Of a stretch of DNA of 64,000 bases, positions 4,621 to 18,565 are shown in pieces. The notes beneath the pieces are model-generated. The model saw only the letters and a program-made list of their open reading frames with translations, had not been told where the DNA came from and did no database searches. The stretch spans positions 3,000,196-3,064,195 of the forward strand of contig NZ_KE386572.1 in the NCBI RefSeq assembly GCF_000427665.1, written 5' to 3'. The translations under genes and the position numbers were made by a program. Origin of the DNA: Geminicoccus roseus DSM 18922. Lineage in GTDB: Bacteria > Pseudomonadota > Alphaproteobacteria > Geminicoccales > Geminicoccaceae. Position 1 is the stretch's first letter; every line of letters starts with the position of its first letter.

Positions 4621-4649
4621 TTGCGCAAAGCTTGAAAAGATCATTTCAT
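4621..4649 (+). promoter_or_regulatory. Possible sigma-70 promoter of the hydrolase gene
   Basis: TTGCGC and TTTCAT are 17 bases apart and match the -35 and -10 consensus at 3 and 4 of 6 positions. Transcription would start near 4656, about 46 bases before the ATG at 4702. The match is modest. Confidence 0.3.
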
Positions 4650-4701
4650 GACCCGGAGGTGGCGGACAAGGGGCGGCGGGAGCCGCGGGATGGGGAGAAA
4701 A

Positions 4702-5523
4702 ATGCCCGTCAAGGAAAGCTCGATCGAGACCAGCCACGGCAGGATCGCCATCCGCGAATCCGCGGGCGAGGGCATGCCGGTCCTCCTGATCCACGGCAAT
4801 TCCAGTTGCGGCGCCGTGTTCCGCAACCAGCTGCAGGGCGCGATCGGCGAACGCTACCGGCTGATCGCGCCGGACCTGCCCGGCCACGGCGATTCGGCCG
4901 ACGCGCTCGACCCCGAGCGCAGCTACTGCATGGAAGGCTATGCCGATGCCATGACCGAGGTGCTGCGCCGGATGGGGATCGAGCAGGCCGTGGTGTTCGG
5001 CTGGTCGCTGGGCGGCCATATCGGGCTGGAGATGATCAAGCGCTTTCCGGGCATGCTCGGCCTGATGATCACCGGAACGCCGCCGGTGGCCCCGGACCAG
5101 GTGATGCAGGGCTTCCGCACCAGCCCGCACATGAACCTGGCCGGGCAGGAGCATTTCAGCGCGGAGGACGTCGAGAACTACGCGCACAGCACCTGCGGCG
5201 AACCGTTCGAGCCGTTCCTGCGCGACGTGGTGGCCCGCACCGACGGCCGGGCCCGCCGGCTGATGTTCGAGAAGTTCGTGGGCGGCAGCGGCGAGGACCA
5301 GAGCCGGATCGTGGCCACCGCCCGGGTGCCGCTGGCGGTGGTCAACGGCGTGGACGAGCCGTTCGTGAACGTCGCATTCCTGCGGGACATCGCGTACGCC
5401 AACCTCTGGGAAGGCCGGACGTTCGAGATCCCGAACTCGGGCCACGCTCCGTTCTGGGACGCGCCGGCCGCCTTCGACGCGATCTTCGCGCGCTTCCTGG
5501 ACGACATGGCCGCCCGCCGATAA
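4702..5523 (+). CDS. Alpha/beta-fold hydrolase
   Basis: This 273-residue, probably cytoplasmic hydrolase has the full catalytic set: nucleophile elbow GWSLGG (Ser102), acid NGVDEP (Asp218) and NSGHAPFW (His248), with the oxyanion motif HGNSS at 31-35. The ATG at 4702 follows GGGGAG; the frame opens 18 codons earlier without a better ribosome site. It is divergent from the first Liv operon and precedes the second, so it may act on an imported ester, amide or C-C bonded compound. The fold is certain, the substrate is not; esterases, haloperoxidase-like and C-C hydrolases share this pattern. Confidence 0.9.
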   Translation: MPVKESSIETSHGRIAIRESAGEGMPVLLIHGNSSCGAVFRNQLQGAIGERYRLIAPDLPGHGDSADALDPERSYCMEGYADAMTEVLRRMGIEQAVVFGWSLGGHIGLEMIKRFPGMLGLMITGTPPVAPDQVMQGFRTSPHMNLAGQEHFSAEDVENYAHSTCGEPFEPFLRDVVARTDGRARRLMFEKFVGGSGEDQSRIVATARVPLAVVNGVDEPFVNVAFLRDIAYANLWEGRTFEIPNSGHAPFWDAPAAFDAIFARFLDDMAARR

Positions 5524-5548
5524 GCGCCAAGGCGGCTGGCCCGATTCT

Positions 5549-5562
5549 TGAACGGTTGTTCA
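5549..5562. promoter_or_regulatory. Inverted repeat upstream of the second Liv operon
   Basis: TGAAC-GGTT-GTTCA is a perfect 5+5 repeat centred about 55 bases before the binding-protein ATG at 5611. It may be an operator. It overlaps the end of a sigma-54-like string (TGGCCC-N5-TTGA, 5537-5551) that lacks the critical C at -12. Confidence 0.25.
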
Positions 5563-5566
5563 CGAA

Positions 5567-5585
5567 GCCGTCCCTCCAGGACGGC
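5567..5585 (+). terminator. Stem-loop between the hydrolase gene and the second Liv operon
   Basis: GCCGTCC and GGACGGC form a perfect 7-bp stem around a CTCCA loop. There is no T-tract. It could end the hydrolase transcript or sit in the leader of the next operon. Confidence 0.35.
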
Positions 5586-5610
5586 CGCATGGGACAGGGG
5601 GAGAAGAGAG

Positions 5611-6774
5611 ATGAGCAGACTGCTCAGGTTCATGCAGGTAGGCGCCGCCATGGCGGCGTTCGGAGCGATCCCGGCCAAGGCGGAGATTACCATCGGGGCG
5701 GCGCTCAACCTGACCGGCATCCAGGCGCCGATGGACGAGCCCGGCTTCCGGGGCGCCCAGGTGGCGATCAAGGAGCTCAATGACAAGGGCGGGCTGCTCG
5801 GTCAGCCGGTCAAGCTGGTCAGCATCGACGGCAAGTCCGACCCGGTGACGGTCGGCAACGTCGCGGTGGAACTGATCGACGACGGCGCCGAGCTGATCAT
5901 GGCGCCCTGCGACTTCGACTTCGGCGGCCCGGCCAGCCGCGAGGCGCAGTCCGCCGACATCGTCGGCATCTCGACCTGCGCCTCCGACCCGCTCTACAGC
6001 TCCTGGTCGCTCGGCGACAAGCAGTTCACCCTGTCCATGTGGAACACCACCATGGGCGCAGTCGCGGCGGACTTTGCGCTCGAGAAGGGCTGGAAGAAGG
6101 CCTACGTCGTCACCGACCAGTTCATCGCCTACACCAAGTCGCTGCCTAAGTACTTCATGGAGCAGTTCAAGGCCGGCGGCGGCGAGATCCTGCTCGAGGA
6201 CAGCTACAACAACGGCGACAACGACTTCTCGGCGCAGCTCTCCCGGCTGCAGGCCCTGCCGGAGAAGCCGGACGTCATCTTCCTGTCCTCCTATGGCACC
6301 GACATCGGCGTGATCATCCGGGCACTGCGCGAGGTCGGCTACGACGCGCCGGTGCTGGGCGGCGACGCCTATGACGATCCGGCGCTGCACCAGGCGCTGG
6401 GCGAGAAGTTCGGCAACGACGTCTACTTCGTCACCCATACCTGGATGGGCTCCGACGCCGGGCCGCAGATGCAGAAGTTCATCGAGCTCTACAAGGAGAT
6501 GTATGGCGGCGAGCCCGACACCTCCTTCGTCGCGACCGGCTACGACACCGTGATGCTGCTGGCCCAGGCCGTCGAGGCCGCCGGCACCACCGACGGCGCC
6601 GCGGTCGCCAAGGCCCTGGAGGAGGGCGAGTTCGAGCTGCTTACCGGCAGCCTCGACTACGGCACCGCCGAGGAAGGCCACATGCCGAACAAGGCGGCGG
6701 CGATCATCGAGCTGAAGGACGGCAAGACCTCCTTCGTCAAGTGGCACCGCCCGGACAGCGTCCCGGCGCCCTGA
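5611..6774 (+). CDS. Periplasmic substrate-binding protein, Liv/amide type
   Basis: This 387-residue exported receptor starts the second Liv operon. The signal peptide ends near AKA|EI (24/25) and is followed by TIGAALNLTGIQAPMDEPG, the usual opening of type-1 periplasmic proteins. The ATG at 5611 is preceded by GGGGGAGAAGAGAG, which decides the start over an in-frame ATG 21 codons earlier. Downstream are livG, livF, livH, livM and an isochorismatase-like hydrolase, so the ligand may be an amide or ureido compound later hydrolysed. Ligand identity is inference. Confidence 0.92.
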   Translation: MSRLLRFMQVGAAMAAFGAIPAKAEITIGAALNLTGIQAPMDEPGFRGAQVAIKELNDKGGLLGQPVKLVSIDGKSDPVTVGNVAVELIDDGAELIMAPCDFDFGGPASREAQSADIVGISTCASDPLYSSWSLGDKQFTLSMWNTTMGAVAADFALEKGWKKAYVVTDQFIAYTKSLPKYFMEQFKAGGGEILLEDSYNNGDNDFSAQLSRLQALPEKPDVIFLSSYGTDIGVIIRALREVGYDAPVLGGDAYDDPALHQALGEKFGNDVYFVTHTWMGSDAGPQMQKFIELYKEMYGGEPDTSFVATGYDTVMLLAQAVEAAGTTDGAAVAKALEEGEFELLTGSLDYGTAEEGHMPNKAAAIIELKDGKTSFVKWHRPDSVPAP

Positions 6775-6781
6775 GCGGCAG

Positions 6782-6811
6782 GGGCGGGCGCGCCGGCCGG
6801 CGCGCCCGCCC
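6782..6811. repeat. Perfect 30-bp palindrome after the binding-protein gene
   Basis: GGGCGGGCGCGCCGG is followed directly by its exact reverse complement, with no T-tract. It starts 7 bases after the binding-protein stop and lies before livG. Such hairpins in transporter operons often protect the receptor message or partly terminate transcription, so that more receptor than membrane protein is made; that role is inferred here. Confidence 0.6.
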
Positions 6812-6853
6812 AAGCACCGTCGCCGCCCTTTCTCTGAATTCAAGGTCCCCCGG

Positions 6854-7594
6854 ATGTCTGAAGGCCGCCTCGTGGCGCGCGACGTTCATGTCGAGTTTTC
6901 CGGGCTGCGCGCCCTGGATGGCGTCACCCTGGACCTCGCCCGCGGCGAGATCGTCGGGCTGATCGGGCCGAACGGCTCCGGCAAGACCACGCTGGTCAAC
7001 GCCATCACCTGCCAGGTCCCGCTCGCGGGCGGCGAGGTGACGGTGGACGGCGTCTCCATGGCGGGGCTGAAGCCCAGCGACGTCGCCCGCCACGGAATCG
7101 CCCGCTCGTTCCAGATCGTGCGCCTGTTCGACCACCTGACCGTGGCCGAGAACATCGAGACCGCCGCCCTGGCCCAGGGCCACGGCCGGCGCGCGGCGCA
7201 GGCGAAGGTCGCCGCCCTGCTCCATGATTTCGGCCTGGACCGCCATGGCGACACGCTGGCGGCGGCCCTGAACTATGGCGACAAGCGCCGGGTGGAGATC
7301 GCCCGGGCCTTGGCCGCCGAACCGTCCTTCCTGATCCTGGACGAGCCGGCCGCCGGCATGAACGAGGGCGAATCCGAGGTGCTCCTGTCGCTGTTGGCCG
7401 CGCTGCCGGAAAAGCGCCGCCTGGGCCTTTTGATCATCGACCACGACATGCCGCTGATCATGCGGCTGTGCCACCGCCTGCACGTGCTGGCGTCGGGCAG
7501 GACCATCGCCGAGGGCGACGTGGAGAGCGTGCGCCGCCATCCCGCCGTGATCGAGGCCTATCTCGGCTCCTCCGCGCAGGCCCAGCATGCTTGA
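6854..7594 (+). CDS. livG: ABC transporter ATPase LivG
   Basis: This is a 246-residue cytoplasmic ATPase with Walker A GPNGSGKTT (38-46), signature LNYGDKR (139-145) and Walker B FLILDEP (159-165). The signature is of the common LivG/UrtD LSYG type, unlike the altered motifs of the LivGs at 2415 and 30305. It overlaps livF by 8 bases. Start is the ATG at 6854, just past the hairpin region; the ribosome site is weak. Confidence 0.92.
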   Translation: MSEGRLVARDVHVEFSGLRALDGVTLDLARGEIVGLIGPNGSGKTTLVNAITCQVPLAGGEVTVDGVSMAGLKPSDVARHGIARSFQIVRLFDHLTVAENIETAALAQGHGRRAAQAKVAALLHDFGLDRHGDTLAAALNYGDKRRVEIARALAAEPSFLILDEPAAGMNEGESEVLLSLLAALPEKRRLGLLIIDHDMPLIMRLCHRLHVLASGRTIAEGDVESVRRHPAVIEAYLGSSAQAQHA

Positions 7595-8291
7595 GGTCCA
7601 GGGGCTCCAGGTGAGCTACGGGGCGATCGCCGCGGTGCGCGACGTTTCCTTGACGCTGGCCGACGGCGAGCTGGTGACGCTGCTGGGCGCCAATGGCGCC
7701 GGCAAGTCCTCGACCCTGCTGGCCATCGCCGGGGCGCTGAAGTCCAGCGGCACCATCCGGCTGGACGGCACCGACGTCTCGTCCTGGTCGCCGGAGCGGA
7801 TGGTGCGCAAGGGCGTGGCGATGGTCCCTGAGACCCGCGACGTGTTCCCCGACCTGACGGTGGGCGAGAACCTCGTGCTGGGCGCCTATACCAGGCGGCG
7901 CGACCGGGACGGGGTGGACGCCGACACCGAGCGGATGTTCGCCCTGTTCCCACGGCTCAAGGAGCGGTTCCAGCAGCCGGCCGGCACCCTTTCCGGCGGC
8001 GAGCAGCAGATGCTGGTGATCGCCCGCGCCCTGATGTCTCGGCCGCGCCTCCTGCTGCTGGACGAGCCGTCCCTGGGCCTGGCCCCCACCATCGTGGACC
8101 AGATCTTCGAGATGATCGCCGAGCTCAAGCGCGACGGCCTGACCATCCTGCTGGTGGAGCAGAACGCGTCCAAGGCGCTCTCCGTGGCCGACCGGGCCTA
8201 TGTGATGCGGCTGGGAACCATCGCGGCGCAAGGCAGCGCCGCCGAGATCGCGGCGGCCTCCGACCTCGAACAGCTCTATCTGGGCGGCTGA
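7587..8291 (+). CDS. livF: ABC transporter ATPase LivF
   Basis: This is a 234-residue ATPase with Walker A GANGAGKSS (34-42), signature LSGGEQQ (135-141) and Walker B LLLLDEP (155-161). It is the standard LivF partner of the preceding LivG, overlapping it by 8 bases in a different frame and followed after 6 bases by livH. Confidence 0.92.
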   Translation: MLEVQGLQVSYGAIAAVRDVSLTLADGELVTLLGANGAGKSSTLLAIAGALKSSGTIRLDGTDVSSWSPERMVRKGVAMVPETRDVFPDLTVGENLVLGAYTRRRDRDGVDADTERMFALFPRLKERFQQPAGTLSGGEQQMLVIARALMSRPRLLLLDEPSLGLAPTIVDQIFEMIAELKRDGLTILLVEQNASKALSVADRAYVMRLGTIAAQGSAAEIAAASDLEQLYLGG

Positions 8292-8297
8292 GCGCAC

Positions 8298-9188
8298 ATG
8301 CAGTTTCTCCTCCAGTTCACCATCGACGTGCTCAGCCTGGGCGGCGCCTACGCGCTGATGGCGCTGGGCCTGGTGATCGTCTACGGCATCCTCAAGCTGG
8401 TGAACTTCGCCTATGGCGAGCTGATCATGGTGGCGGGCTACGGCCTGTTCCTGATGAACGGCTCAGGGTTGCCCTGGATCGTGATGGCCGCGGTGGCGGT
8501 GCTGATCGCGATCGCCACCGGGGTCGCCACCGACTACATCGCCTTCCGGCCGGTGCGGGCGAAATCGGTGACCGCGGTGCTGATCACCTCCTTCGCCTTC
8601 TCGACCATCCTGCAGAACGCCGCGCTGCTGTTCATCTCGCCTAGGGCGCGCAACGTGCCGCTGCCGGACCTGTTCTCGCAGACGGTGGAGTTCGCCGGCA
8701 TCCTGATCCCGGCGCGCAACCTGATCACCATCGTCGCCTCGATCCTGCTGCTCGTGCTGTTCGCCTGGGCGATGAAGAGAACCGTGCTCGGCATCGCGAT
8801 GCGGGCGGCCGCGACCCAGTTCCGCATGGCGCGGATGCTGGGGGTGCCGGCCAACCTGATCATCTCCAGCGCGTTCGCGATCAGCGGGTTCTTCGCCGGG
8901 GTGGTGTCGCTGCTCTGGATCGGCCGGATCGGCTCGGTGACGCCGGGCATCGGCCTGGAGCCTTTGCTGGTGGCGTTCATCGCGACCGTGATCGGCGGGA
9001 TGCGCAGCCTGCAGGGCGCGGTGCTGGGCGGGTTCCTCCTGGCCTTCGTCAACACCGGCCTGAACTACACGCTGCCGCAGGACCTCCTGCAGTTCCGCGA
9101 CGCGTTCACCTTCACCCTCGTGATCCTGATCCTGTTGTGGCGTCCCGAGGGCCTGATCCGCGGCCCCGCCACCGGCCAGCGGACCTGA
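8298..9188 (+). CDS. livH: ABC permease LivH
   Basis: This is a 296-residue inner-membrane permease with about eight hydrophobic segments. It carries the family motif LVNFAYGELIMVAGYG around residues 34-49 and ends with LLWRPEGLIRG, typical of Liv permeases. It sits between livF and livM in the second Liv operon. Confidence 0.92.
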   Translation: MQFLLQFTIDVLSLGGAYALMALGLVIVYGILKLVNFAYGELIMVAGYGLFLMNGSGLPWIVMAAVAVLIAIATGVATDYIAFRPVRAKSVTAVLITSFAFSTILQNAALLFISPRARNVPLPDLFSQTVEFAGILIPARNLITIVASILLLVLFAWAMKRTVLGIAMRAAATQFRMARMLGVPANLIISSAFAISGFFAGVVSLLWIGRIGSVTPGIGLEPLLVAFIATVIGGMRSLQGAVLGGFLLAFVNTGLNYTLPQDLLQFRDAFTFTLVILILLWRPEGLIRGPATGQRT

Positions 9189-9193
9189 AGCCC

Positions 9194-10216
9194 TTGAAAC
9201 GCGGCAACATCCTCACCCTCGTCATCCTCCTGGGCCTGGTGGCCCTGCTGGTGGCCGTGCCCGCCGTCCTGCAGGACCGCCTGACCGAGCGCATCGCGAC
9301 CGCGATGGCGATCAGCCTGGTGCTGGTGGTGGGCCTGCAGACCTTCACCGGCAATTCCGGGATCCTGTCGTTCGCCCATATCGGCTTCATGGGGGTGGGC
9401 GCCTACGCCTCGGCGGCGATCACCATCCCGGTGCAGATGCGCGGCATGGCGCTGCCCGACCTCTACGAGATTATCAAGACCGTGCAGGTCTCGGGCTATG
9501 TGGGCATCCTGATCGGCGGGCTGGTGGCGGCGCTGATCGCCGCGGTGATCGCCTACCCGCTGATGCGCCTGTCCGACGCCCCGGCGGTGATCACCTCCTT
9601 TGCGCTGCTGGTGGTGCTGCACACCATCATCGCCCACTGGAGCGCCGTCACCAACGGGCCGCGGACCCTGTTCGGCCTGCCGAGCGTCACCAGCCTGCCG
9701 CTGGCGGGCGGGATCGCCGCGGTGGCGGTCGTGGTGGCGCTGTTGTTCAAGGAATCGCGGATCGGGCTTCTGTTGCGGGCGTCGCGGGACGACGAGCGGG
9801 CCGCTGGCGCGCTCGGCGCCAACATCCCCTCCCTGCGCTGGCGGGCCTTCATCCTGAGCGCGCTGTTCGCCGGGATCGGCGGGGCGCTGTGGGGCCATTT
9901 CGTGACCTCGTTCTCGCCCAAGGCCTTCTACCTCAAGGAAACCTTCGTGATCCTGGGCATGCTGGTGATCGGCGGCACCAACACGGTGACCGGGGCGGTG
10001 ATCGGCACCTTCGCGGTGACGATCCTGTTCGAGAGCCTGCGCGCGCTGGAGACCTCGCTGAACGCGGCCGACATCTTCGCCGACCAGGTGGTGGGGCTCA
10101 CCGAGATCGTGCTGGCGATGGCGATGATGGGCGTGATGTTCCTCAAGCCGGGCGGGCTGTTCGCCGCGACCGAGATCGGGCCGCTGCTCCTGCGCCGGTT
10201 CAAGAAAAAGGGCTGA
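9194..10216 (+). CDS. livM: ABC permease LivM
   Basis: This 340-residue inner-membrane permease contains the LivM motif NSGILSFAHIGFMGVGAYAS and ends in FLKPGGLFAATEIG. The start is uncertain. TTG at 9194 lies 6 bases after the livH stop and gives a lysine-arginine N-terminus leading into the first membrane segment. The only upstream in-frame ATG (9137) would overlap livH by 52 bases and add an arginine/proline-rich leader not expected in a permease. Confidence 0.88.
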   Translation: MKRGNILTLVILLGLVALLVAVPAVLQDRLTERIATAMAISLVLVVGLQTFTGNSGILSFAHIGFMGVGAYASAAITIPVQMRGMALPDLYEIIKTVQVSGYVGILIGGLVAALIAAVIAYPLMRLSDAPAVITSFALLVVLHTIIAHWSAVTNGPRTLFGLPSVTSLPLAGGIAAVAVVVALLFKESRIGLLLRASRDDERAAGALGANIPSLRWRAFILSALFAGIGGALWGHFVTSFSPKAFYLKETFVILGMLVIGGTNTVTGAVIGTFAVTILFESLRALETSLNAADIFADQVVGLTEIVLAMAMMGVMFLKPGGLFAATEIGPLLLRRFKKKG

Positions 10217-10219
10217 TCG

Positions 10220-10891
10220 ATGAGCTGGAAGACCCGGCACCGCTCCTTCTACTACGCCAACGCGCCCGAGCCCGAGGACATGGTGCTCGATCCCAAGGAG
10301 ACGGCGCTGCTCGTGATCGACGTGCAGAAAACCTATCTCCTGCCCAAGAGCGATCCGGCCGAGAACGAGGCGTGGCAGCCGTTCTTCGAGCGCATGAACC
10401 AGGTAGTGATCCCCAACATCAAGAAGCTGATCGACGACAGCCGCCGCCGGGGCGTGGAAGTGATCTATGCGCGGATCGCCTGCCTGAAGAACGACGGGCG
10501 CGACCGCTCGCTCAGCCAGAAGCGGCCGGGCTTCAACTACCTGCTGCTGCCCCGCAACGAGGACGAGGGACAGGTGGTCGCCGCGCTGGCGCCGCAGGGC
10601 GACGACATCGTGGTCGAGAAGACCACCGACAGCGCGCTCACCGGCACCAACCTGCGGATCCTGCTCGCCAACATGGGCATCAAGAACGTGGTCGCCACCG
10701 GGATCTTCACCGACCAGTGCGTGTCGTCCACGGTGCGCAGCCTGTCCGACGAGAGCTTCAACGTCCTGGTGGTCGAGGACTGCTGCGCGGCGGCGACGAT
10801 GGAGCTCCAGAACCGCGAACTGGAGATCATCAACATGATCTACTGCCACGTGGTCGACTCAAACGAGCTTCGGAGCTTCTACTCGGCCTGA
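10220..10891 (+). CDS. Isochorismatase-like cysteine hydrolase
   Basis: This 223-residue cytoplasmic enzyme has the catalytic triad of the isochorismatase/nicotinamidase superfamily: Asp34 in LLVIDVQ, Lys134 in VEKTTDSAL and Cys167 in FTDQCVSST. Members hydrolyse amides, ureides (RutB, carbamoylsarcosine or biuret hydrolases) or vinyl ethers. It starts 3 bases after livM, so it is probably the last gene of the second Liv operon and acts on the imported compound or its product. No sequence feature lets me choose one substrate; an amide or N-carbamoyl group is the likeliest guess. Confidence 0.88.
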   Translation: MSWKTRHRSFYYANAPEPEDMVLDPKETALLVIDVQKTYLLPKSDPAENEAWQPFFERMNQVVIPNIKKLIDDSRRRGVEVIYARIACLKNDGRDRSLSQKRPGFNYLLLPRNEDEGQVVAALAPQGDDIVVEKTTDSALTGTNLRILLANMGIKNVVATGIFTDQCVSSTVRSLSDESFNVLVVEDCCAAATMELQNRELEIINMIYCHVVDSNELRSFYSA

Positions 10892-11063: not shown

Positions 11064-12323
11064 ATGACCATGACCGGCCCGATCCTCAGCCGTCGCAGCG
11101 CCATCCAGACGGCCGGCGCCGCAGCCGCCTTGTCGCTGCTGGGCGCTCCCCGCGCCCGCGCCGCTTCCCCCGTGCAGATGATCAGCCACCGCTACCCGGC
11201 GCTCGAGCTGTTCGCCGAGAAGATGCGCGGCGCGGTGGACGGGGTGGAGGTCAACACCCAGCTGATGCCGTTCGACAAGGCCAACGAGCTCGCGACCATC
11301 GCGCTCTCGTCCAAGGCCGACACGCTGGACATTGTCTACGCCAGCGACAGCACGGTGCAGAAATACGCCAAGAACGGCTGGCTGATGCCGCTCGACGACC
11401 TGTTCGCGAAGTACAAGGACGAGTTCGGCCTCGGCGACTTCCCGGAAGCGGGGCTGGCGCCCTACCGCTACGAGGGCAAGCTCTACGTCCTGCCGCACAC
11501 CGTCAACGTGATGATGCTGTTCTACCGCAAGGACCTGTTCGAGGCGGAAGGCAAGCAGCCGCCCAAGACGATCGCCGAGTATCATGAGCTCGCGGAGCAC
11601 TTCAATTCGCCGATGCGCGCGGGCTCGGTGAACTGCCTGAAGCCGGTCGATGCCGGCCTCAACGAGGCGCACTGGTACATCAATGCCCTGGCCGACGGCT
11701 GGTTCGACGACCAGTGGAAGCCGGTGTTCAACAACGAGAAGGGCGTGGCGGCGATCGAGCAGCTGAAGGAGATCACCCAGTTCGCCCAGCGCGGCTATGC
11801 CACCGCCGCGAACGACGAATGCTCGCTCGCCTACCAGCAGGACATCGGGGTAATGGGGCTGCAATGGGCCACCCGCGCCGCCTCGATGGACGACCCGGCC
11901 AAGTCCCGGGTGGTCGGCCAGATCGACTGGGCGGCGCCGCCGGACGGCCATGCCCGGCTGTCCGGCGACGGCTACGCGATCTCCGCCTTCACCAAGCAGG
12001 ACCCGGATCTCCTGTTTCGGATCATCGCCACCTCGTCCAGCGACGCCACCCAGCGCGAGGCGGCAGCCCTGATGGTGCCGCCTCGCGAATCGGTGCTGCG
12101 CGACCCGAAGCTGGCGGAGCAGTACCGGCACTATCCCGCGATCCTGGCCTCGCTGGAGACCGCCACGCCGTTCCCGCCGCTGCCGGAGTTCTACGAGGCA
12201 GGCGAGTTCATCACCCGGCGGATCCTGCAGGCGGTGGCCGGCGAGATGGAGGTGCAGGAGGCGCTGGATGCCGCCGCCGGCGAGACCGAGCAGCTCCTGC
12301 AGAGCCGCGGCTACTACAACTGA
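11064..12323 (+). CDS. Extracellular solute-binding protein, carbohydrate type (tandem copy 1)
   Basis: This 419-residue family-1 binding protein has a twin-arginine-like signal (SRRSAIQT, then a hydrophobic stretch ending in RARAA), suggesting export after folding or with a cofactor. It shares long identical runs with the next gene, such as NTQLMPFDKANELATI and RGYATAANDEC. It belongs to the same broad family as maltose and glycerol-phosphate receptors. AGGGA lies 6 bases before a second ATG at 11070, which may be the true start. It heads an operon with two permeases, two amidohydrolase-like enzymes and a Rieske protein. Ligand unknown. Confidence 0.9.
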   Translation: MTMTGPILSRRSAIQTAGAAAALSLLGAPRARAASPVQMISHRYPALELFAEKMRGAVDGVEVNTQLMPFDKANELATIALSSKADTLDIVYASDSTVQKYAKNGWLMPLDDLFAKYKDEFGLGDFPEAGLAPYRYEGKLYVLPHTVNVMMLFYRKDLFEAEGKQPPKTIAEYHELAEHFNSPMRAGSVNCLKPVDAGLNEAHWYINALADGWFDDQWKPVFNNEKGVAAIEQLKEITQFAQRGYATAANDECSLAYQQDIGVMGLQWATRAASMDDPAKSRVVGQIDWAAPPDGHARLSGDGYAISAFTKQDPDLLFRIIATSSSDATQREAAALMVPPRESVLRDPKLAEQYRHYPAILASLETATPFPPLPEFYEAGEFITRRILQAVAGEMEVQEALDAAAGETEQLLQSRGYYN

Positions 12324-12363
12324 GTGGACGGGGCCGAACAGGAAGCAGGGTGGGGAATCGCGG

Positions 12364-13614
12364 ATGACTGCATATGGGATCGACCGGCGCCGGGCGTTGC
12401 AGACGCTCGGAATGGCGGCCGCGGCCTCCATGGCGGGAGGGCAGGCGAGAGCCGCAACGCCGGTGCAGATGATCAGCCACCGCTTCCCGGCTCTGGAGTT
12501 CTATGCGGAGAAGATGCGTTCGGCCGTGCCCGGGGTGGAGGTCAACACCCAGCTCATGCCGTTCGACAAGGCCAATGAGCTGGCGACCATCAGCCTGTCC
12601 TCGAAGTCGGACGCGCTGGACATCGTCTACGCGAACGACACCACCGTTCAGAAATACGCCAAGAACGGCTGGCTGCGTCCACTGGACGACTTGTGGGAGA
12701 AGCACCGAGGGGAGTTTGCCCTTGCGGACTTCCCCGAGACCGTGCTGGCGCCGTACCGGTACGAGGGCAAGCTCTACTGCGTGCCCCACAACGTCAACGT
12801 GATGCTGCTCTTCTTTCGGCGCGACCTGTTCGAGGAAGCCGGCAGGCAGCCGCCCACCACCATGGACGAGTACCTGGCGCTCGCGGAGAAGTTCAACACG
12901 CCGATGCGGGCAGGCACGATCAAGTGCCTGAAGCCGATCGACGCGGTGATGAACGAGGCGCACTGGTACTTCAACACGATCGGCGATGGATGGTTCGACG
13001 AAGACTGGCATCCGGTCTTCAACGGCGAGAACGGCGTCAAAGCGATCGAGGCGCTCAAGAAAAGCGCGGGTTATGCGCAGCGTGGCTATGCCACCGCTGC
13101 CAACGACGAGTGCACCCTGGCCCTGCAGCAGGACTTGGCGGCGATGGGCCTGCAATGGGCCAGCCGCACCGCATCGATGGACGATCCGGCCAAGTCGCGC
13201 GTGGTGGATCTGATGGGGTGGGCCGCCCCGCCCGGCGGCCACAGCCGGTTGGCGGCTGATGGCTACGCAATCTCGGCGTTCAGCAAGCAGGACCCCGAAC
13301 TCCTGTTCCGGATCCTGGCGACCTCGTCGAGCGAGGCCAACATGCGCGAGGGGGCTGCCATGCTGGTGCCGCCGCGCGACTCCGTGCTGCGCGATCCGGA
13401 GCTAGCGAAGAAGTTCCGGCACTATCCCGGCATCCTTGCAGCGCTGCCTACGGCCCTGCCGACTCCGCCGCTGCCCGAGTTCTACGAGGCGGGCGAGTTC
13501 ATCTCGCGCCGCATCCTCCAAGCGGTGGCCGGCGAGATGGAGGTGAAAGCAGCGCTCGATGCGGCGGCTGCCGAGACGGAACAACTATTGAGGAGCCGCG
13601 GCTACTACGGTTGA
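12364..13614 (+). CDS. Extracellular solute-binding protein, carbohydrate type (tandem copy 2)
   Basis: This 416-residue paralogue lies 40 bases after copy 1. It also has a twin-arginine-like signal (DRRRALQTLG, cleavage near QARAA). By eye roughly three quarters of positions match copy 1, and both end in RSRGYY plus one residue. Start at ATG 12364 follows GGGGA. Differences are spread along the chain and include the pair LPHTVNVMMLFY versus VPHNVNVMLLFF near the expected ligand cleft, so the copies may bind related ligands. It probably feeds the same permease pair. Confidence 0.9.
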   Translation: MTAYGIDRRRALQTLGMAAAASMAGGQARAATPVQMISHRFPALEFYAEKMRSAVPGVEVNTQLMPFDKANELATISLSSKSDALDIVYANDTTVQKYAKNGWLRPLDDLWEKHRGEFALADFPETVLAPYRYEGKLYCVPHNVNVMLLFFRRDLFEEAGRQPPTTMDEYLALAEKFNTPMRAGTIKCLKPIDAVMNEAHWYFNTIGDGWFDEDWHPVFNGENGVKAIEALKKSAGYAQRGYATAANDECTLALQQDLAAMGLQWASRTASMDDPAKSRVVDLMGWAAPPGGHSRLAADGYAISAFSKQDPELLFRILATSSSEANMREGAAMLVPPRDSVLRDPELAKKFRHYPGILAALPTALPTPPLPEFYEAGEFISRRILQAVAGEMEVKAALDAAAAETEQLLRSRGYYG

Positions 13615-13666
13615 CGCCTGTTCCCGGCCTGTCCAAACGCTCCCGATCCGGAAGACTTGACCTGAC

Positions 13667-14536
13667 ATGCAGACCCAACGGGGCCTTTGGCTCTTCCTGG
13701 TGCCGAGTGGGCTGATGATCGCCCTGGTGCTGCTCTACCCGCTCGGCTACGCGATCTATCTGAGCTTCTTCAACTATTACCTGGGCGGCCAGGAGCCGAG
13801 CTTCATCGGGCTGGGCAACTACACGGCTCTGCTGGGTGACGAGCGGTTCTGGAGCTCGATCGGCAAGACGGTGATGATCGTCGCCGGCGCGGTCAGCCTG
13901 GAGTTCGTGCTGGGCCTCGCGGTGGCGTTCGGGCTATACAAGCTGACCTTCGGGGTCAAGCCGCTCAATCTTTTGATGTTCCTGCCGCACATCGTGACGC
14001 CGGTGGTGGCGGCCCTGTTCCTGCGCTGGATCTTCACCGGACGCTGGGGACTGCTCGACGCGATCATCATGAGCTTCAACATCTTCCCGCCGGACTGGCT
14101 GGGCACGCCCGGCTGGGCGCGGTTCACCGTGATCCTGGCGGATGCCTGGCAGTTCACGCCGTTCATGATCCTGGTGCTCTATGCCGGGCTGAACACGGTG
14201 GATTCCAGCCAGATCGAATCGGCGCAGATGGACGGGGCGGGCAACTGGACGGTGCTGACCAAGGTCATGCTGCCGGCGATCAAGCCGCTCATCCTGTTCG
14301 TGCTGGCGATCCGGATCATGGATGCCTTCCGGTTCTTCGACCAGATCTACGTGCTGACCGCGGGCGGTCCCGGCACCGCCACCGAAACGCTCACCATGTA
14401 CACCTATGCACTGGCGTTCCGGCTGCTCGAGATCGGCAAGGCCTCGGCGCTGGGCGTGCTGACGCTGCTGCTTTCGGCGCTCACCATCGGCCTGCTGATC
14501 GCGGTACTGTACCGGCGCGACAAGGGAGCGTTCTGA
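13667..14536 (+). CDS. Sugar-type ABC permease, MalF/UgpA-like
   Basis: This is a 289-residue inner-membrane protein with six predicted segments. The EAA-type coupling motif (ESAQMDGAGNWTVLTKVMLP, about residues 184-203) docks the ATPase. It belongs with the following MalG-like permease (shared base at the junction). No ATPase gene is found within this operon, so a shared MsiK/UgpC-type ATPase encoded elsewhere is expected. Confidence 0.92.
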   Translation: MQTQRGLWLFLVPSGLMIALVLLYPLGYAIYLSFFNYYLGGQEPSFIGLGNYTALLGDERFWSSIGKTVMIVAGAVSLEFVLGLAVAFGLYKLTFGVKPLNLLMFLPHIVTPVVAALFLRWIFTGRWGLLDAIIMSFNIFPPDWLGTPGWARFTVILADAWQFTPFMILVLYAGLNTVDSSQIESAQMDGAGNWTVLTKVMLPAIKPLILFVLAIRIMDAFRFFDQIYVLTAGGPGTATETLTMYTYALAFRLLEIGKASALGVLTLLLSALTIGLLIAVLYRRDKGAF

Positions 14537-15360
14537 TGCGTCCCTCGCGCGCCTCGCAGACCCTCCTGTTCCTGGCGCTGTGCGCGTTCACCGTGGTGAA
14601 CCTCACGCCGATCATCTGGGCGTTCCTGACCTCGATCAAGCTGCCGGTGGACGCCTTCTCGGTGCCGCCCAAGCTGATCTTCACGCCGACCTTCGAGTTC
14701 CACTACCAGGTCTGGGTCGAGAAGGAGTTCTGGCGCTTCTTGATCAACAGCGCGGTGATCGCGGTCTCCACCGTGTGCATCTCGGTGCCGATCGGCACCA
14801 TGGCGGCGTTCGCGCTCTCGCGGATGCGGGGAAGCGGCTCGCGCGGGATCCTGTTCGGCCTGCTGGCGATGCGGATGTTCCCGCACATCCTGCTGGCGAT
14901 CCCGTTCTTCGTGCTGGCCCAGGGATTGAGCCTGATCGACACCTATCCGGCGATGGTCCTGGCGCTGGTGGCGATCAACCAGCCCTTCACGATCTGGATG
15001 ATGCGCAGCTTCTTCATGGACGTGCCGCTGGAGCTGGACGAGGCGGCCCGGATCGACGGCTGCAACCTTTGGCAGGTGTTCTACCAGGTGGCGCTGCCGG
15101 TGGTGCGGCCGGGCCTGTGGATCACCTGCCTGTTCAGCCTGCTGCTCGCCTACAACGAGTTCCTGTTCGCGCTGGTGCTGACCGGCCCGAGCACCAAGAC
15201 CCTGCCGGTGGCGATCGCCGAGTACGGGGCGGAAGACCTGAACTACTGGTCGCTGTCGGCCGCCGCCGCGATCGGGATCATGCTGCCGATCGTGCTGTTC
15301 ATGATGGCGCTGCAGCGCCACCTGGTGCGCGGCCTGGCCTTCGGCGCGGTCAAGGGCTGA
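14536..15360 (+). CDS. Sugar-type ABC permease, MalG/UgpE-like
   Basis: This is a 274-residue inner-membrane protein with about six segments and the coupling motif DEAARIDGCNLWQVFYQVAL near residues 169-188. Its ATG shares one base with the stop of the MalF-like gene (TGATG). It is followed 2 bases later by the first amidohydrolase gene, tying transport to catabolism. Confidence 0.92.
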   Translation: MRPSRASQTLLFLALCAFTVVNLTPIIWAFLTSIKLPVDAFSVPPKLIFTPTFEFHYQVWVEKEFWRFLINSAVIAVSTVCISVPIGTMAAFALSRMRGSGSRGILFGLLAMRMFPHILLAIPFFVLAQGLSLIDTYPAMVLALVAINQPFTIWMMRSFFMDVPLELDEAARIDGCNLWQVFYQVALPVVRPGLWITCLFSLLLAYNEFLFALVLTGPSTKTLPVAIAEYGAEDLNYWSLSAAAAIGIMLPIVLFMMALQRHLVRGLAFGAVKG

Positions 15361-15362
15361 GG

Positions 15363-16442
15363 ATGACGGAGAACTCCATGAAAGCCACCGGCGCCATCGA
15401 CTGTGACGTCCATCCGACCGTACCGGGCATCCAGGCGCTGGTGCCCTATCTCGACCCGTACTGGCAGGAAATGGTCGACGTGCGCGGCATCGAGAGCTTC
15501 GAGAACCGCAGCTTCCCGGCACGTGCCCCGATCAATGCCCGGCCGGAATGGCGCGCCGGCGGCAAGGGGCCGGCGGGCGAGAGCGTCGAGCGGATCCAGA
15601 GCGAGCTGTTCGACCGGTGGGACCCGGCCATCGCGATCTGCAACTGCCTCTACGGCATCCAGCAGATCAACGACGAGCGGATGGCCGCAGCGTTCGCCAA
15701 GGCGGTCAACGACTGGCTGGCAGTGGAGTGGCTTTCCAAGGAGCCCCGGCTGCGCGCCTCGATCGTGGTGCCGGTACAGAACCCGGAGCTGGCGGTCGAC
15801 GAGATCGAGCGGCTGGCCCACGACAAGCGCTTCGTGCAGGTGCTGGTTTTGGTGATGGGCGAGCTGCCGCTCGGCAAGAGCTTTCACTGGCCGATCTATC
15901 GCGCCGCCGAGCGCCACGGCCTGCCGATCTGCGTGCATCTGGGCAGCTCCTACCGGCATCCGGTCACGGCGTCGGGCTGGCCGACCTACCATGTTGAGGA
16001 CTATGTCGTGCAGACCCAGGCCTTTCAGGCCCAGGTAGCCAGCCTGATCAGCCACGGCGTGTTCCAGAAATTCCCGAAGCTGAAGGTGGTGCTGGCCGAA
16101 TCCGGGGTGAGCTGGCTGCCGACCTTCCTGTGGCGGTTCACCAAGGGCTGGCGCGGCCTGCGCATCGAGGTGCCCTGGGTCGACCGCTCGCCGATCGAGA
16201 TCGTGCGCGAGCATTTCCGCCTGACCCTGCAGCCGTTCGACGCGCCGGCCGACCCGGCCGAAGTCGGCCGGGTGCTCGATCATCTCGGCTCGGACGATTT
16301 ACTCCTGTACTCGTCGGACTATCCTCATTGGCAGTTCGACGGCGACGACCTGATCCCGGCTGGCTTCTCGCCGGAACTGCAGCGCAAGATCATGGTCGAC
16401 AATCCACGCGCGACCTACCCGCGTCTGGGAGACACGGCATGA
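15363..16442 (+). CDS. Amidohydrolase-superfamily (COG2159) metal-dependent enzyme 1
   Basis: This 359-residue, probably cytoplasmic TIM-barrel enzyme is related to amidohydrolase_2 hydrolases and decarboxylases. It has IDCDVHPTV at the first strand (Asp15-x-His17 where many relatives have His-x-His), a later VHLG histidine and the terminal metal motif YSSDYPHWQFDGDD. An ATG five codons in (15378, after GGAG) is an alternative start. The stop overlaps the next gene as ATGA, and the two proteins are paralogues by eye. Reaction unknown: hydrolysis or non-oxidative decarboxylation are both known in the family. Confidence 0.87.
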   Translation: MTENSMKATGAIDCDVHPTVPGIQALVPYLDPYWQEMVDVRGIESFENRSFPARAPINARPEWRAGGKGPAGESVERIQSELFDRWDPAIAICNCLYGIQQINDERMAAAFAKAVNDWLAVEWLSKEPRLRASIVVPVQNPELAVDEIERLAHDKRFVQVLVLVMGELPLGKSFHWPIYRAAERHGLPICVHLGSSYRHPVTASGWPTYHVEDYVVQTQAFQAQVASLISHGVFQKFPKLKVVLAESGVSWLPTFLWRFTKGWRGLRIEVPWVDRSPIEIVREHFRLTLQPFDAPADPAEVGRVLDHLGSDDLLLYSSDYPHWQFDGDDLIPAGFSPELQRKIMVDNPRATYPRLGDTA

Positions 16443-17575
16443 CCCTCGAGGTTCTCGATCGTTCGCAGACGGAGACCGCGACGCCTGCGACCTCCACCCG
16501 CGCAGCACCGCAGCGGCTGGGCATCATCGACTGCGACCTGCACCCGACGGTGAAGTCGCTGGCCGACCTGAAGCACTACTTAAGCAAGCGCTGGTGGGAT
16601 CGGATCCAGACCTACGGGCTGCGGCCGCGCCACGCCTTCGTGAACGGCGACCCGTATCCCAAGGCGGCGCCCCGCGCGGCGCGCCGCGACGCCTGGGGGC
16701 CTGATGGCGGCCAGCCCGGCAGCGATCTGGGCTTCATGCGCGAGCACTACCTGGACGCCTATGGCGTCGAGTACGCGATCATGGCGCCGCTCTATCCCAG
16801 CGGCCAAGCCGACCAGGATCCCGAGTTCACCACCGCGATGGTGAGCGCCGTCAACGACTGGCAGCTCGACGCCTGGGTGCGCCAGGAACGGCGGCTGAAG
16901 GCCTCGATCCTGGTGTCCTACGAGGATGCCGCGGCCTCGGTGGCGGAGATCGAGAAGCGCGCCGGCGATCCGGGCTTCTCCCAGGTCCTGCTGCTGACCC
17001 GCACCAACGAGCCGCTCGGGCGCAAGCGCTACTGGCCGATCTACGAGGCCGCGGAGCGGCACGGGCTGCCGGTGGCGATGCATGTGTTCGGCTATAGCGG
17101 CTTCCCGGTGAGCGGCACCGGCTGGCCGTCCTACTACCTGGAGGAGATGACCGGCCATTCGGCGGCCTGCCAGTCGGTGGTGGCGAGCCTGGTGCTGGAA
17201 GGCGTGTTCGAGCGCTTCCCGGGCGTGAAGTTCATCAACATCGAGGGCGGCTTCGGCTGGCTGGCGGCGCTCTCCTGGCGGCTGGACAAGCACTGGGCGC
17301 GCCTGCGCGCCGAGGTCCCGCACCTCAAGCGCCCGCCGTCGGAATATCTGAAGGAGCAGCTCTACATCACCACCCAGCCGATGGACGAGCCGGAAAGCCC
17401 GCGCCAGCTGATCGATCTGATGGAGCAGGTCGGCTTCGACCGGCTCTTGTTCGCCACCGACTATCCGCATTGGGACTTCGACGATCCGGCGCGCGCGCTG
17501 CCGCGCGGGCTGACCGACGAGCAGACCCGGGCGATCCGGTCGGAAAATGCGCGCAAGCTGTTCCGCTTCGACTGA
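16439..17575 (+). CDS. Amidohydrolase-superfamily (COG2159) metal-dependent enzyme 2
   Basis: This 378-residue paralogue of the preceding enzyme has a polar N-terminal extension of about 28 residues, then IDCDLHPTV (Asp33-x-His35), EAAERHGLP, AMHVFGYSG and FATDYPHWDFDD. Coupled overlaps on both sides (ATGA upstream, TGATG downstream) suggest the two proteins and the Rieske protein are made together, perhaps as a complex or successive steps. Whether they form a heteromer is inference. Confidence 0.87.
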   Translation: MTLEVLDRSQTETATPATSTRAAPQRLGIIDCDLHPTVKSLADLKHYLSKRWWDRIQTYGLRPRHAFVNGDPYPKAAPRAARRDAWGPDGGQPGSDLGFMREHYLDAYGVEYAIMAPLYPSGQADQDPEFTTAMVSAVNDWQLDAWVRQERRLKASILVSYEDAAASVAEIEKRAGDPGFSQVLLLTRTNEPLGRKRYWPIYEAAERHGLPVAMHVFGYSGFPVSGTGWPSYYLEEMTGHSAACQSVVASLVLEGVFERFPGVKFINIEGGFGWLAALSWRLDKHWARLRAEVPHLKRPPSEYLKEQLYITTQPMDEPESPRQLIDLMEQVGFDRLLFATDYPHWDFDDPARALPRGLTDEQTRAIRSENARKLFRFD

Positions 17576-17988
17576 TGGCCCGGCATGTCGTCGCGACCGC
17601 CGCCGAGATCCCGCCCGGCGGTCGCAAGCTGGTCGAGATCAACGGAAGGCCGATCGCGATCTTCCACGTCAAGGACGAGTATTTCGCCCTGTACGACAAG
17701 TGCCCGCACGAGGGCGGCAGCCTGTGCAAGGGCAAGCTCACCAGCCTGGTGGAATCGGACGGCCCCGGCGACTACCGGGTGAGCCGCCAGGGCGAGATCG
17801 TCCGCTGCCCCTGGCATGGCTGGGAGTTCGACCTGCGCACCGGCAAGTCCTACTGCGACCCGGTGAAGATGCGGGTGCGCAACTATGCCGTCTCGGTGGA
17901 GCCTGGCACCCGGGTGGTCGAGGGGCCCTACCTTGCCGAGACCTTCCCGGTCTCGGTCGAAGGCGAGTACGTGGTGGTGGAACTGTAA
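17575..17988 (+). CDS. Rieske [2Fe-2S] ferredoxin-like protein
   Basis: This 137-residue, probably cytoplasmic electron carrier has both Rieske ligand boxes: KCPHEGGS (about residues 42-49) and RCPWHGWEF (about 77-85), giving two Cys and two His. The spacing between boxes is longer than in minimal ferredoxins. It shares one base with the amidohydrolase-2 stop. No oxygenase alpha subunit or reductase is nearby, so its partner is either elsewhere or one of the linked enzymes. It resembles the N-terminal domain of ring-hydroxylating oxygenases but has no catalytic domain. Confidence 0.9.
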   Translation: MARHVVATAAEIPPGGRKLVEINGRPIAIFHVKDEYFALYDKCPHEGGSLCKGKLTSLVESDGPGDYRVSRQGEIVRCPWHGWEFDLRTGKSYCDPVKMRVRNYAVSVEPGTRVVEGPYLAETFPVSVEGEYVVVEL

Positions 17989-18223
17989 GGGCAGGGGCGC
18001 CGCACCGGGCGCCTCCGACGCCGCCCGTTGCCGCATCCTCCGGCCGGTGATCCGTGCGGATCGTGGGTGGGGCAGGCCAGCAGAACGTCATCCTGATGCG
18101 CCCGATGGTTCCTGCGCGACAACGTGGCCGTAGCGCCCCGGCGGCCCAGCCTGCCTACCCAAAACTTAACCGATCGGAAAAGGTTCTCCTGGCAAGCAAG
18201 CGCAGGAGGTGATAGTTAGCAAC

Positions 18224-18565
18224 ATGACTAAGGATGACGCCGACCTCTCCCTGATCCTCCATGCGCTGGCCGATCCGACCCGCCGGTCCATCCTGAACCG
18301 GCTGGCCGAGAAGCCGGCCCGGGTCACGGATCTGTCCGAGCCCACCGGCCTGCGCCTGCCCACGGTGATGCGCCATCTTTCGGTGCTGGAGGACGCGGGG
18401 CTGATCGCTTCCTCCAAGGAGGGGCGGGTGCGCACCTGCGTCATCGTGCCGGAGGCACTGTCGCCGGTTCGGGCATGGCTCGACGAGCATCGGGCCACCT
18501 GGGAGGCCCGGCTCGACCGGCTGGAAGCGTTGGCGACACAGATTGCGAAGGAACGCGCGAGATGA
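18224..18565 (+). CDS. ArsR/SmtB-type winged-helix regulator
   Basis: This 113-residue repressor-like protein opens with ILHALADPTRRSILNRLAEKP, the hallmark of the non-metal ArsR group linked to SRPBCC genes. No metal-binding cysteine pair is visible in the recognition helix. ATG 18224 follows AGGAGGTGAT, an extended match to the 16S anti-Shine-Dalgarno. TTAG-N8-CTAA overlaps the start codon and might be an autoregulatory site. The stop overlaps the SRPBCC gene (ATGA). The preceding 235 bases after the Rieske gene show nothing else I can name. Confidence 0.88.
   Translation: MTKDDADLSLILHALADPTRRSILNRLAEKPARVTDLSEPTGLRLPTVMRHLSVLEDAGLIASSKEGRVRTCVIVPEALSPVRAWLDEHRATWEARLDRLEALATQIAKERAR

Follow-up and report, generated by a model that had tools for sequence, protein, structure and literature searches.

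What does an operon do that joins a carbohydrate-type importer to two amidohydrolase-like proteins and a Rieske protein? Such an operon lies at positions 11064-17988 of a 64,000-nucleotide stretch of the Geminicoccus roseus DSM 18922 genome (contig NZ_KE386572.1; hereafter the window), where open reading frames and Pfam give seven genes, all on the plus strand: two receptors, two permeases, the paired PF04909 proteins AH1 and AH2, and the Rieske protein. The original prediction took the enzymes for two metal hydrolases or decarboxylases accompanied by a Rieske electron carrier and no oxygenase. We consider it very probable that the operon encodes a carbohydrate-type (CUT1) ABC importer and an AibH1H2-type dinuclear monooxygenase with its Rieske ferredoxin, acting on an imported compound. 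The enzyme class is assigned with high confidence: the two 'amidohydrolases' would themselves be the oxygenase. The gene identities, metal-ligand residues, phylogenetic placement and recurrent linkage of the enzyme trio (AH1, AH2 and the Rieske protein) described below are all readings of sequence. The enzyme type has been described before; what is less expected is a CUT1 importer with tandem receptors ahead of the trio.

AH1 and AH2 resemble the subunits of a dinuclear monooxygenase

In Rhodococcus wratislaviensis C31-06, AibH1H2, the Rieske protein AibG and the FMN reductase AibF are reported to form a three-component monooxygenase that converts 2-aminoisobutyrate (Aib) to alpha-methyl-D-serine, with activity depending on both AibG and AibF (PMC7782822). 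AibH1H2 is reported to require Mn and to hold a Mn/Fe site (PMC10401708), and the class has been named ARO, one member of which, SfbO, dealkylates a surrogate substrate (PMC10811679). As these three papers on ARO-class enzymes present it, a reaction has been demonstrated only for AibH1H2, PtmU3 and, on the surrogate, SfbO.

Searched against all PDB sequences, AH1 finds AibH1 as its best match (E 7.6e-93) and AH2 finds AibH2 (E 5.4e-85), followed by the candidate AROs 8SM6-8SM9, then PtmU3 (E 1.7e-18 for AH1, 4.3e-18 for AH2) and, lowest, decarboxylases (best E 7.2e-13 for AH1, 1.6e-15 for AH2), an order that goes against the earlier naming of the pair as hydrolases or decarboxylases. Aligned identity is 43.0% between AH1 and AibH1 and 40.9% between AH2 and AibH2; of the two adjacent PF04909 genes one groups with AibH1 and the other with AibH2.

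Metal-site residues were compared by sequence, with the reference positions taken from PMC7782822, in an alignment of the window, 80 AH2 loci, 12 plasmid loci and 10 further genome stretches (query coverage at least 85%, rows labelled by best match). AH2 of the window has the dinuclear ligands D33, H35, H215, E269, D341 and H344 and the second-sphere acid D346, that is, every ligand of the AibH2 monooxygenase site, which speaks against the statement that the operon lacks an oxygenase. Each position of the AibH2 set, the six ligands plus D342, is invariant in 104/104 AH2 rows. AH1 keeps D15, H17, H192, E246, D319 and H322 and has Q324 where the acid would stand, as AibH1 too is without the Asp; the acid at 342 is missing from all 89 of the 89 AH1 rows, replaced by Q in 74, H in 14 and R in 1, with the shared ligands kept except for Q in place of H27 in one row and G in place of E265 in another.

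The tree (97 rows, thinned at 80% identity with chosen rows kept, midpoint root) puts the AH1 rows and AibH1 in one group (support 100/99) and the AH2 rows and AibH2 in the other (100/96), with SfbO, 8SM7 and the haloarchaeal protein of L125 beside the AibH2/AH2 group. AibH1 and AibH2 sit outside the alphaproteobacterial rows, each on a long branch shared with a Rhodococcus plasmid protein (L118); therefore Aib is not simply transferable as a substrate. An AlphaFold2 model of AH2 (predicted local distance difference test score, pLDDT, 81.7) likewise has AibH2 as its best PDB match (E 3.3e-32), and the 20 top PDB chains are without exception AibH1H2 or published AROs. Two attempts at finer mapping failed: the AibH1 interface residues given in a 2025 review (PMC12141560) follow a numbering that disagrees with the one we derived, and no numbering offset fitted the SfbO sulphate-binding residues to the alignment.

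Together with the Rieske gene, these matches and residues agree with another suggestion of the original prediction, that of a metal enzyme made of two subunits and served by a redox partner. Its remark that no described pathway has this set does not hold for the enzymes, given that aibH1-aibH2-aibG had already been described (PMC7782822). The window shares with AibH1H2-AibG-AibF (PDB 6M1W, 6M2I, 8FUL-8FUO) two PF04909 subunits and a Rieske protein in the order H1-H2-G, dinuclear ligands in H2 and a mononuclear site without the acid in H1. It differs, beyond the modest identities, in having a CUT1 importer with two receptors where the aib cluster has the permease AibT, and in lacking, among its seven genes by Pfam, an AibF-like reductase, an importer ATPase and the downstream aib enzymes. 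The single-subunit AROs SfbO (PDB 8SM6) and 8SM7-8SM9 are reported to have the same PF04909 dinuclear site and a small Rieske neighbour (PMC10811679), but AH2 is only 35.9% identical to SfbO and 37.8% to 8SM7, and both fall outside the AibH2/AH2 group in the tree, which did not include 8SM8 and 8SM9. The diterpenoid hydroxylase PtmU3 (PDB 6OMP) shares the fold and the type of dinuclear site, differing in its weak match and in a substrate described as a CoA-ligated diterpenoid (PMC7782822).

Other enzyme types were tried and rejected. The PDB E-values, the dinuclear residues and the fold ranking speak against a decarboxylase or hydrolase assignment of AH1 and AH2; mononuclear PF04909 decarboxylases (ACMSD, gamma-resorcylate decarboxylase) are not their closest relatives by sequence or model; and a Rieske non-heme oxygenase alpha subunit, with Rieske and catalytic domains, is not encoded by any of the seven genes according to Pfam. 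The ARO assignment also clears a misleading 'amidohydrolase' annotation.

The enzyme trio is conserved

Co-occurrence of the enzymes with the Rieske gene, proposed earlier as a check, was borne out. The Rieske ferredoxin carries the motif CPH-(32 residues)-CPWH, and a search with this protein of 385 genomes of the class (E<=1e-12) gave 31 matches in 21 genomes, one match having no assigned locus. An amidohydrolase-like gene (E<=1e-8) lies within about 1.5 kb of the Rieske gene in 30/31 loci (L001-L031), the sole exception being L002, a weak second match in the window's own genome.

Starting from AH2, we took the best 80 of at least 577 genome loci, a set rich in Bradyrhizobium. The whole trio is found in 65/80, AH1 and AH2 only in 4/80 (L060, L066, L097, L111), AH2 with a Rieske gene in 1/80 (L098) and AH2 alone in 10/80. 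Five of the 15 incomplete loci end at a contig end within 0.5 kb (L098, L038, L039, L045, L048), and six AH2-alone loci with more than 2 kb on both sides (L036, L041, L043, L046, L052, L110) look like true exceptions. In L050, 4.5 kb separate AH1 from AH2. Linkage of the trio exceeds chance. In the published catalogue of 555 uncharacterised AibH2-like proteins, co-occurrence is given as 90% for a Rieske protein and 40% for a permease, and the neighbours are said to offer few hints of function (PMC10401708).

Several trio loci have features of their own. Mesorhizobium sp. BR1-1-16 (L042, 4027-11517) has two AH1-AH2-Rieske trios; genes for a Fer2 ferredoxin and an FAD reductase of the Reductase_C type lie between the two, and a dipeptide-type ABC importer follows. 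Three trios stand ahead of a serine hydroxymethyltransferase gene (L037 8838-12806, L062 2170-7317 and L104 8907-13173; called by Pfam on the L037 copy and by clustering on the others), with nrdR/rib-like genes also behind them by eye and, in L062, a TctC receptor before the trio. This may be housekeeping context or a pathway link, AibC being like serine hydroxymethyltransferase. A haloarchaeal plasmid (L125, 5859-10579) carries ARO-Rieske pairs; one ARO copy is short, at 147 codons, and two CUT1 permease genes form a pair about 5 kb off.

Organisation of the operon and its importer

The genes follow one another almost end to end, as first described (Table 1). The two receptor genes are 40 bp apart and 52 bp separate the second from the first permease gene; from there to the Rieske gene the spacings are -1, +2, -4 and -1 bp, and therefore the last five genes very likely share one transcript. 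A scan for promoters and terminators was uninformative (0 promoter-like sites with 0.8 expected; 4 terminator-like sites with 3.2 expected), and a tRNA scan found none.

Table 1. Genes of the operon in the window
Gene product	Position	Strand	Basis
SBP1, CUT1-type solute-binding protein (SBP), RR leader	11064..12323	+	Pfam SBP_bac_1 E 1.4e-20
SBP2, CUT1-type solute-binding protein, tandem paralogue of SBP1	12364..13614	+	Pfam SBP_bac_1 E 1.3e-25
ABC permease, MalF/UgpA-like	13667..14536	+	Pfam BPD_transp_1; NCBIfam GlcT, UgpA, MalF far below cut-off
ABC permease, MalG/UgpE-like	14536..15360	+	Pfam BPD_transp_1; NCBIfam GlcU, MalG below cut-off
AH1, AibH1-like subunit, putatively non-catalytic	15363..16442	+	Pfam Amidohydro_2; PDB match, residues, tree
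AH2, AibH2-like putative catalytic subunit	16439..17575	+	Pfam Amidohydro_2; PDB match, residues, tree, model
AibG-like Rieske [2Fe-2S] ferredoxin, 137 aa	17575..17988	+	Pfam Rieske E 5.5e-16; motif

The description of the receptors and permeases as carbohydrate-type also stands: both receptors match SBP_bac_1 and SBP_bac_8, and both permeases BPD_transp_1. SBP1 and SBP2 are 73% identical and have RR-containing leaders (SRRSAIQ and DRRRALQ), read by eye as signals for Tat export. The importer shares with MalEFG and UgpABE an SBP_bac_1 receptor and two BPD_transp_1 permeases, and differs in its two tandem receptors, in the absence of an ATPase among the seven genes and in that curated NCBIfam models all score below cut-off for its proteins. 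It is also rare. Of the 385 genomes, none but the window's own gave a match to SBP1 at E<=1e-60 (up to four candidates scored per genome), and plasmids gave none at E<=1e-30. A search with the second permease (E<=1e-75) found it in 2/31 genomes of the order and not in the one other genome of the genus.

CUT1 importers beside AH1-AH2 pairs

The order SBP-permease-permease-AH1-AH2 recurs in L136, from a genome of the same family (G409), where a contig end follows, and in L066 from Acidisphaera. SBP1 is 66% identical to the L136 receptor and 59% to that of L066, and the second permease 80% identical to its counterpart in G409 and 77% in L066. Other CUT1 systems lie near AH pairs in L047, L073, L114, L117, L119, L120, L121, L122 and L123, with second permeases only 28-38% identical to the window's, and five CUT1 arrangements differing from the window's importer stand near homologous pairs. 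Roseomonas gilardii, R. marmotae and Bosea have SBP-permease-permease-ATPase-MGH1-like glycosidase-AH1-AH2-Rieske (glycosidase by Pfam); Sinorhizobium mexicanum, Rhizobium SSA_523 and Microvirga terrae have Rieske, AH1-AH2, DhaK-DhaL, CUT1 and an enolase-superfamily gene; Mesorhizobium B2-1-8 has Rieske-permeases-SBP-AH1-AH2-ferredoxin-reductase-UgpC; Neorhizobium has GMC-AH1-AH2 and then CUT1, with no Rieske gene seen; and L047 has AH1-AH2-Rieske-UgpC-SBP-permeases, its AH2 falling in the tree within the clade of the window's AH2.

Genes for Rieske, AH1, AH2, DhaK-DhaL, CUT1, an enolase-superfamily enzyme and an SDR form a common plasmid cluster in L120 (7441-17525), L121 (7438-17250) and L122 (5614-19048); it is possible that this rhizobial cluster encodes a whole pathway for a sugar-like compound. 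In L068 (4808-6510), a part-permease that is 59% identical to the window's first permease comes after a lone AH2-like gene, adjoining a full trio without CUT1.

As a positional control we used 31 non-redundant loci (AH2 less than 80% identical). Enrichment was weak, with 3, 4, 1 and 1 permease genes at 0-2, 2-4, 4-6 and 6-8 kb, sitting in L066, L073, L047 and L097 (the L068 part-permease fell under the coverage limit). On plasmids, CUT1 lies within 9 kb in 7/10 best matches and in 8/12 inspected of 85 matching records, these being raw counts. Rhizobial plasmids are rich in CUT1 systems.

A proposed activity and its substrate

How might these seven genes work together? We suggest that a small, polar, sugar- or polyol-like compound would be imported by the two receptors and two permeases with an ATPase borrowed from elsewhere in the genome. 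The genome has 32 places for UgpC-like ATPases, none in the cluster, and therefore the importer could borrow one. NAD(P)H would supply electrons to a reductase whose gene lies elsewhere and which, like the ATPase, may be shared; the Rieske protein would then hand them to the dinuclear centre of AH2. This centre, predicted to be Fe2 or Mn/Fe, would activate O2 and hydroxylate a C-H bond of the imported compound. Were that bond adjacent to O or N, the product (a hemiacetal or hemiaminal) would fall apart, giving a net dealkylation. AH1 would be a non-catalytic structural partner within an AH1-AH2 heteromer.

The substrate is probably sugar- or polyol-like and not Aib, which we offer as a lead only; the genes that recur nearby favour sugars or polyols, if weakly, and nothing was found to point to the aromatic substrate proposed earlier. 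More broadly, the CUT1-linked AH1-AH2 pairs beside MGH1-like glycosidase, DhaK-DhaL, enolase-superfamily and GMC genes might be dinuclear monooxygenases that oxidise carbohydrates or polyols, a generalisation that we put forward tentatively and think somewhat more apt to fail than to hold. They might, for example, hydroxylate a branched or deoxy sugar at a methyl or deoxy carbon, or O- or N-demethylate a sugar or cyclitol. Cytochrome P450 and MocDEF-like systems are known for methylated sugars and for rhizopine; if the generalisation is true, these pairs would be a further bacterial route into sugars closed to ordinary dehydrogenases. The overlap of enzyme genes with those of a two-receptor importer offers a direct handle on the substrate via the ligands of the receptors. 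Our literature search for this gene combination found no paper on such a cluster beyond the ARO papers cited, and no explanation of the PDB name 'TruffO'.

Alternative explanations

Several observations weigh against an importer-linked monooxygenase. A genome search with a Microvirga PDR/VanB reductase, which had no positive control, turned up no AibF-like reductase at E<=1e-10; a Reductase_C search of the genome gave nothing (3/14 control genomes were positive), a Sulfitobacter FAD reductase gave partial matches only (30-34%), and PF00970 occurs at one place. The AH1-AH2 pairs of L060, L066, L097 and L111 have no nearby Rieske gene, and we saw none across the 19 kb of L117. Linkage to CUT1 is a minority trait, with a permease inside 4 kb in just 3/31 of the non-redundant loci, and trios differ in the transporter beside them: CUT1, dipeptide-type, MFS or TctC-type, with some predicted operons having none. 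These last two points would fit an importer and a monooxygenase that are mere neighbours with no common substrate. We judge this unlikely, given the tight or overlapping spacings from permease to Rieske gene, the recurrence of the importer-AH1-AH2 order in L136 and L066, and the frequency of CUT1 systems near the plasmid matches; a functional link between importer and monooxygenase is the likely case.

Could the trio instead be an Aib hydroxylase proper, with the substrate and pathway of R. wratislaviensis? AibH1 and AibH2 are its closest solved relatives, and the same subunit pair comes with a Rieske gene, but the identities are low, long branches separate the Aib proteins and the Rhodococcus plasmid pair from the alphaproteobacterial rows, and the transporter is a carbohydrate-type importer and no amino acid permease. 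Moreover, a comparison confined to the seven genes found no counterpart of aibD1, aibE, aibC, aibA or aibT, and we regard an Aib hydroxylase as very improbable. Least credible of all is a non-redox activity of the PF04909 pair, as decarboxylase, hydratase or hydrolase, with the Rieske protein serving something else: the Pfam name Amidohydro_2 and the weaker decarboxylase matches are set against the order of E-values, the dinuclear ligands and acid, the tree, the fold ranking and the presence of the trio in most AH2 loci. An importer-linked monooxygenase remains our preferred reading.

Flanking genes

An ArsR gene (18209-18565) starts 220 bp downstream of the Rieske gene. An ArsR gene near a trio occurs in the window and in L032 (36% identity), which we take as coincidence. 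Upstream, on the same strand, positions 4648-10891 encode an alpha/beta hydrolase, a Peripla_BP_6 receptor, BPD_transp_2 permeases, an ABC ATPase and an isochorismatase-like hydrolase, whose nearest NCBIfam models, RutB and biuret hydrolase, score far below cut-off. This set ends 172 bp before SBP1 and is apparently a separate catabolic set from the seven genes.

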